Origin: Azoarcus sp.
Lineage (GTDB): Bacteria; Pseudomonadota; Gammaproteobacteria; Burkholderiales; Rhodocyclaceae
NCBI GenBank assembly: GCA_020725025.1
Contig: DYFV01000004.1
Span: 1 to 64,000, forward strand
Direction of reading: 5' to 3'
DNA length: 64,000 nt
Shown here: positions 8,181 to 8,325 of the stretch, piece after piece
Numbering within the stretch: the stretch's first letter is position 1
How the letters are laid out: each line of letters begins with the position of its first letter
Notes under the pieces: generated by a model
Database searches by the model: none
Seen by the model: the letters and a program-made list of their open reading frames with translations, nothing else
Told to the model about the DNA's origin: nothing
Made by a program: the position numbers and the translations under genes

Positions 8181-8325
8181 TCGGCCCGGAACTAGATAAG
8201 GCCCGCCGACTCTGAGCCAGTAGATGGTGCTGAGCCATCTCCCGCTTCACCTCCCTGAGCGGGTGCCTTAATCCAGTTAAGGCATTTTACCCCGGGCATT
8301 TATCCCCTTTGGCCCGGGGTTTTTT
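8181..8325 (+). ncRNA. Candidate structured small RNA with an anti-Shine-Dalgarno hairpin loop
   Basis: Three perfect hairpins abut one another. A is AGATGG/CCATCT (8222-8240). B is CCCGCT/AGCGGG (8241-8263). C is TGCCTTAA/TTAAGGCA (8264-8284). D follows: CCCCGGGC/GCCCGGGG (8290-8319) and then six T, A and more T, an intrinsic terminator for plus-strand transcription. TCGGC/GCCGA (8181-8209) may form a fifth stem. The loop of B contains TCACCTCC (8247-8254), identical to the anti-SD end of 16S rRNA. TAGATA (8193-8198) could be a -10 box, giving an RNA start near 8205. The opposite strand would instead give a hemB leader carrying a 27-codon frame (8238 to 8155) behind GGAGG. The T-run favours the plus strand. 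Confidence 0.55.
8290..8325 (+). terminator. Rho-independent terminator of the hairpin array
   Basis: An 8-bp perfect GC stem, CCCCGGGC (8290-8297) with GCCCGGGG (8312-8319), is followed directly by six T (8320-8325), one A and further T. The T-run is on the plus strand, so this ends rightward transcription from the hemB-engB gap and overlaps the engB stop codon. Read leftward it has no U-tract and would be a poor engB terminator. Confidence 0.75.

Follow-up and report, generated by a model that had tools for sequence, protein, structure and literature searches.

What is a run of hairpins doing in the short gap between hemB and engB of an Azoarcus sp. genome, and does the sequence displayed in one of its loops matter? 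The gap lies in a stretch of 64,000 nucleotides (assembly GCA_020725025.1, contig DYFV01000004.1, positions 1 to 64,000), which as a whole we call the window and to which the coordinates below refer. Read from its sequence, the locus is predicted to be a genuine small regulatory RNA (sRNA) of a known, functionally uncharacterised family, anti-hemB. For this named and functionally blank family, the analysis supplies a candidate promoter, a complete 5' end, and a range over much of Burkholderiales, together with a probable relative, ErsA, whose biology is known. In the literature searched, outside which most subscription-journal papers fell, we found no link between anti-hemB and RpoE or ErsA; nor did any paper found there describe a sigma-E-type promoter, count the 5' hairpin as part of the family, or connect the RNA to the ErsA locus.

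What Does the Locus Contain?

Three perfect hairpins adjoin without a spacer on the plus strand, at 8222-8240, 8241-8263, and 8264-8284, and all three are present in the minimum-energy fold, just as a first-pass annotation of this DNA had drawn them. They are followed by an intrinsic terminator (8289-8327), which that annotation had also called correctly and which fold and alignment both support: a stem at 8289-8320, a UCCCC-containing loop, and a T-run on the plus strand. A terminator scan limited to loops of 3-8 nt called no terminator at the locus; the loop here has 14 nt. As a unit, plus-strand 8222-8327 (106 nt) folds at -47.6 kcal/mol (z = -5.1), a stability equalled in none of 200 shuffles. 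The upstream neighbor, hemB (7119-8132, minus strand; PF00490 ALAD, E 3.8e-136), is divergent, and engB, encoding the YihA/YsxC GTPase (8324-8956, minus strand; TIGR03598, 236.4 bits, cut-off 124.45), converges from downstream.

The loop of hairpin 2 reads UCACCUCCCUG (8247-8257) and includes, at 8247-8254, the 8-mer TCACCTCC that had first drawn attention to the middle hairpin, which we take to be a copy of the anti-Shine-Dalgarno (anti-SD) sequence at the 3' end of 16S rRNA. Because the window holds six copies of this 8-mer against 2.15 expected, the 8-mer alone is weak evidence, and its weight rests on its location inside the loop of a conserved hairpin.

Does It Belong to a Named Family?

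The first-pass annotation knew of no named family in the hemB-engB gap, and in this it was mistaken. Rfam RF02837 “anti-hemB” matches 8238-8327 on the plus strand over its full length (model positions 1-81 of 81) with 80.9 bits, against a cut-off of 49.5, and the RNA lies beside hemB and is read away from it, as expected of the family. This is the one match above cut-off in the window's genome. A second, weak one is better explained by RF02278 (locus L002, 1497-1564, contig C55; 61.7 bits, cut-off 50), a second RNA with an anti-SD loop in this genome. Hairpin 1 lies almost entirely beyond the Rfam match; the RF02837 model lacks both this hairpin and the candidate promoter seen at the window locus.

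Otherwise, the likeness to anti-hemB (Burkholderia RNA 7; ncS04) extends to the hemB/engB setting, a length of ~105 nt, and an anti-SD-like loop. The B. cenocepacia counterpart, ncS04, is described in the available text of two reports as a 105-nt transcript between divergent and convergent neighbors; its 3' end is marked as RACE-confirmed in a table, it is named in the legend of a Northern blot, and its co-purification with Hfq is cited from an earlier study (PMC5688073, PMC4603805). Anti-hemB is also listed in a table of a B. pseudomallei sRNA paper (PMC3521395). Counting 105 nt back from the T-run leads to the base of hairpin 1 in three of four Burkholderia loci (the same genus, not J2315), so that the published length agrees with a start at hairpin 1 in those three; the fourth (L125) folds less clearly at that point.

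Several other families can be set aside. Spot 42 (RF00021) is ruled out, with no match in 8100-8400 or in 274 genomes of the class, including the window's, and a positive E. coli control. At the window segment, TarA, sX11, suhB, and SorX give only matches below cut-off, as do the alphaproteobacterial ar14 (23 bits vs. 58.8) and ar7 (22.8 bits vs. 60), which share C-rich or anti-SD hairpin loops with our RNA. The same holds for RF02278, the Betaproteobacteria toxic small RNA (18.7 bits vs. 50), whose members resemble ours in a hairpin with a CU-rich anti-SD loop plus a terminator but have two hairpins. Anti-SD RNAs of the Rhodobacter type (cuckoo/CcsR) carry a CCUCCUCCC loop under RpoH promoters.

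How Widely Is It Distributed, and Beside Which Genes?

Within the order, RF02837 is found above cut-off in 133 of 200 genomes and at E<=0.001 in 154; named carriers among the matches listed include Paraburkholderia, Burkholderia, Pandoraea, Thiobacillus, Aromatoleum, Methylovorus, and Vogesella. We chose 71 loci from the order and own-genome searches, a selection and not every match. In 49 of them, hemB and engB flank the RNA as in the window. In 10 others (L015, L025, L026, L036, L046, L050, L060, L065, L066, and L069), engB on the plus strand stands upstream of the sRNA, and the surroundings seem to have been rearranged while the sRNA kept its place beside engB. The remaining 12, among them L002 with its RF02278 RNA, have one neighbor or none within the piece examined. 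For comparison of sequences, 69 of the 71 were used, L002 being left out as a different family and L026 as a duplicate of L025. Named genomes supplied a further set, of which 119 of 120 loci were used (one was removed as a duplicate or as too near its locus end), and 36 named loci were inspected individually, by genus. These 119 are not independent, because they partly overlap the order loci (L039 and L121 have identical upstream sequence) and include many near-identical Paraburkholderia.

Two minor observations belong here. Among the matches listed, the sRNA also occurs in tandem, with two to four copies in series, some of them under the Rfam cut-off (L034, 1260-1349 and 1437-1526; L260; L263; G369, contig C33, 13148-13886; G460, contig C3, 217579-218301). 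Furthermore, a contig of a metagenome-assembled genome titled Klebsiella pneumoniae (L147) carries an anti-hemB-type hairpin and promoter of the Burkholderiales kind; its label may be wrong.

Across the class, RF02837 exceeds its cut-off in 14 of 274 genomes and reaches E<=0.001 in 124, each count taking in the genome of the window and one other from its order; the looser count contains noise, because three of 14 control genomes also match below cut-off. Twenty-eight matches outside the order were taken as loci. Thirteen of these have polA on the plus strand to one side and engB on the minus strand to the other, seven have polA alone and three engB alone, one is inverted with both genes, and four have neither in the piece examined.

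Are the Structure and the Loop Conserved?

The alignment comprises the 69 distinct loci and runs from upstream of hairpin 1 through the T-run. The four-hairpin structure has 28 pairs, with 89.4% of cells paired and two-sided changes in 24 of the pairs. None of 500 shuffles, a control that leaves relatedness unremoved, matches any of the five observed structure measures, and sliding the partners, a control that retains relatedness, lowers pairing to 50.4% or less. Compensatory changes across relatives, which the first-pass annotation had proposed as a test, occur in every helix, those of hairpins 2 and 3 included (7 of 8 pairs with two-sided changes in hairpin 3). In hairpin 1, all seven consensus pairs have two-sided changes and 86.4% of cells are paired; with covariation this strong, the 5' hairpin is part of the RNA, although Rfam's model does not include it. 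There are 120 G-U cells to 44 A-C cells, a balance that indicates the plus strand.

As regards the loop, the expectation that it would be conserved proved right for its core and wrong for the exact 8-nt copy. The core CCTCC (CCUCC in RNA) is kept in 66 of 69 relatives and CCTCCCTG in 65, against just seven for exact TCACCTCC; the conserved element is, therefore, the anti-SD core plus C, U, and G. The exact 8-mer is ruled out as a significant feature by those seven relatives, together with its surplus in the window. What stands of the original proposal is a plus-strand sRNA with an anti-SD loop, upheld by covariation, the G-U/A-C balance, the loop core, and the B. cenocepacia transcript; what falls is its namelessness.

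Which Sigma Factor Might Drive It?

The first-pass annotation passed over a promoter-like motif of the sigma-E type and did not connect the RNA with the polA-engB (ErsA) locus, discussed below. In the window, GGAACTA (-35, 8188-8194) and TCTGA (-10, 8211-8215), separated by 16 nt, form a candidate plus-strand promoter that stops 6 nt 5' of hairpin 1. The transcription start is accordingly placed, by prediction, at 8222, 6 nt past the -10 box, which would give ~106 nt to 8327. Relatives have a common motif, GGAACTt-N15-17-TCwnA, immediately 5' of hairpin 1. The consensus was defined with the loci already in view, and its -35 part agrees with the sigma-E motif GGAACTTTT given in the accessible part of PMC1804206. 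A score of at least 10 of 11 is reached by 52 of 69 relatives and by none of 4963 control segments from the same loci, and a score of at least 9 by 61 of 69 and by 32 of 4963, respectively; this graded score replaced an earlier strict pattern (39/69 relatives vs. 6/4479 background segments). The higher threshold is also reached at 79 of the 119 named-genome loci, which are partly overlapping and partly near-identical, and at 16 of the 28 loci of other gammaproteobacterial orders.

The genome of the window encodes RpoE (TIGR02939, 351.3 bits, cut-off 236.15) in an rpoE-rseA-rseB cluster. Over 200 genomes, uncorrected for kinship or genome reduction, the sRNA and RseA are both present in 136, the sRNA only in six, RseA only in 33, and neither in 25; here, a genome was credited with the sRNA if its best match had an E of 8e-8 or below (142 genomes), and 12 with weaker matches were counted as lacking it. 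The motif, which is conserved at the level of sequence, suggests an RNA that may be switched on by cell-envelope stress, like ErsA of Pseudomonas.

We infer the sigma factor by resemblance, and some findings speak against it. Of 30 loci given, rpoE was located in 24, and 23 of these have no such motif upstream of it. The motif is also not enriched genome-wide, scores below 9 in eight of 69 relatives, and lacks its -35 box in four of six Burkholderia-titled loci, including B. ambifaria and B. ubonensis. In the 5.44-Mb genome of the window, GGAACTWN{16,17}TCWNA has two matches, one of them here, against one in the reversed control; over 60 genomes, the strict motif has 75, of which 11 stand before RF02837 matches, against 146 in the reversed control. 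Two candidates were dropped on these counts: a genome-wide regulon defined by the strict motif, and an autoregulated rpoE with the same promoter (one of 24 loci).

The same sRNA might instead be driven by a housekeeping or another ECF sigma factor, and would then not be an envelope-stress RNA. Such a reading would account for the many -10 elements of the form TATCTT or TATCAT, which resemble the sigma-70 -10 box as well, for the four Burkholderia-titled loci that keep only TATATGATA, for the missing motif at rpoE, and for the level of ncS04, constant across seven conditions in the available text (PMC5688073, PMC4603805). It sits less well with a conserved part that is GGAACTT at nearly fixed spacing, in agreement with the published sigma-E motif (PMC1804206), with a strict sigma-70 scan that found no site at the locus, and with the Pseudomonadaceae, in which a like motif stands by engB at 13 of the 23 loci found with EngB, compared with 14 of 322 background segments, and in which ErsA is reported to be AlgU-dependent (PMC8395346). 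We consider it unlikely, if by no means far-fetched, and retain sigma-E as the preferred candidate.

The other two of the six Burkholderia-titled loci resemble Paraburkholderia, in which GAAACTT-N17-TCATA is kept in nine of 11, and ncS04 may be unrepresentative of how the family is regulated. A near-palindrome, GGTATATCATACC, spans the -10 region in Burkholderiaceae (L114, L184, L185, and L125, and Paraburkholderia such as L118) and takes the form GGTATATGATAGC in four Burkholderia loci; it is possibly a regulator site.

How Would the RNA Act?

The analysis shows the structure and its conservation, the promoter sequence, the family, and the synteny. On these we build a proposal, with what we think is a good chance of being right, as to which sigma factor acts, how the RNA pairs, what it targets, and in which direction it regulates: a ~106-nt, sigma-E-controlled anti-hemB sRNA that acts in trans, its anti-SD loop blocking ribosome-binding sites, and that is a relative of ErsA. 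Transcription would proceed on the plus strand from a sigma-E-type (RpoE, envelope-stress) promoter as far as the intrinsic terminator. Most likely acting in trans, and probably with Hfq, the RNA would use the CCUCCCU loop of hairpin 2 as a mimic of the 16S anti-SD, pairing with the purine-rich ribosome-binding sites of several mRNAs (by analogy, sites of the GGGAGG type), and translation of these mRNAs would be blocked under envelope stress. On this proposal, it would be kin, within Burkholderiales, to ErsA, which is linked to engB and driven by sigma-E/AlgU, and betaproteobacteria are predicted to have, by way of an anti-SD loop, a counterpart of the gammaproteobacterial sigma-E sRNAs. This prediction is directly testable.

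Could the partner of the C-rich loops be a protein or, in a sponge, another RNA, and not ribosome-binding sites at all? Both loop 2 and the terminator loop are C-rich, and the anti-SD targets are predicted ones, so the idea has some footing. The behavior of comparable RNAs points the other way. B. pertussis CT_433 and CT_521 have CU-rich loops, and their RIL-seq targets share an SD-like motif in the accessible text of PMC12235514; the CU-rich loops of the Burkholderia double-hairpin RNAs are placed on ribosome-binding sites by target prediction; and Xanthomonas sX13, from the polA locus, likewise has C-rich loops and, as described in PMC3771888, represses mRNAs that carry G-rich sites close to their start, although its loops are 4C/5C and it is Hfq-independent. 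We regard the sponge as rather improbable and continue with ribosome-binding sites as the proposed targets.

The competing reading of the first-pass annotation, a hemB leader or short frame on the minus strand with the hairpins acting in the 5' region of hemB mRNA, is very improbable. In its favor, hemB diverges ~90 nt from the predicted start, and the minus strand folds as well (z -3.65). The G-U/A-C balance and the direction of the terminator with its T-run disfavor it. The upstream neighbors also change, to engB in the 10 of 71 loci above and to polA in 20 of the 28 loci from other gammaproteobacterial orders. Minus-strand frames, finally, are short, the longest having a median of 14 aa in 69 loci against 20 in shuffles and reaching 25 aa in 12 of 69 against 37% of shuffles.

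Is It a Relative of ErsA?

In the portions of the literature available, ersA is placed between polA and engB (PMC8575079), and ErsA is reported as an AlgU-dependent, Hfq-aided repressor (PMC8395346). Schmidtke and others noted three RNAs at polA, namely Spot 42, sX13, and alpha-r7, and raised the question of whether sRNAs occupy that place in other bacteria (PMC3771888). The window locus resembles ErsA (RF01719) in its convergence with engB, in a motif of the sigma-22/RpoE promoter type, present here as sequence, and in having hairpins and a terminator with C-rich loops. It differs in having hemB upstream, where ErsA has polA, and in its CCUCCCUG hairpin, which is missing in three aligned ErsA.

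Direct comparison of models gives a mixed picture. RF01719 “Pseudomon-1/ErsA” is found in seven of nine scanned Pseudomonadaceae loci; it has no match in 8100-8400 (E<=1) and none in the window's genome (E<=0.001). Six of its nine sub-cut-off matches outside Pseudomonadaceae coincide with RF02837 matches. Our Burkholderiales model R1, whose scores for the 28 loci outside the order are not independent because these were preselected by RF02837, weakly finds 11 of 23 Pseudomonadaceae loci (E 4e-5 to 0.04), and the match falls at ErsA in the seven of those 11 also found with RF01719. It finds the RF02278 RNA of L002 about as well (E 8e-5), and therefore the common hairpin-plus-terminator form may explain much of the likeness between R1 and ErsA. 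The ErsA link is carried more by synteny and promoter than by sequence, and on that footing the anti-hemB RNA is probably a relative of ErsA.

A wider history can be proposed tentatively, and we would hold it with slightly less than even confidence. Anti-hemB of Burkholderiales, the polA-engB sRNAs of several other gammaproteobacterial orders, and ErsA may all descend from one ancient, engB-linked, sigma-E-driven sRNA, a general brake on translation under envelope stress. Its founding device would be a loop mimicking the 16S anti-SD, which Pseudomonas would later have remodelled, and sX13 and Spot 42 might be further derived RNAs at that locus.

As a separate observation, one PrrF-bearing Pseudomonadaceae genome (G360, locus L295) has its ErsA match and its best engB match on different contigs (C3 and C5), and the linkage of ErsA to engB may have been lost there.
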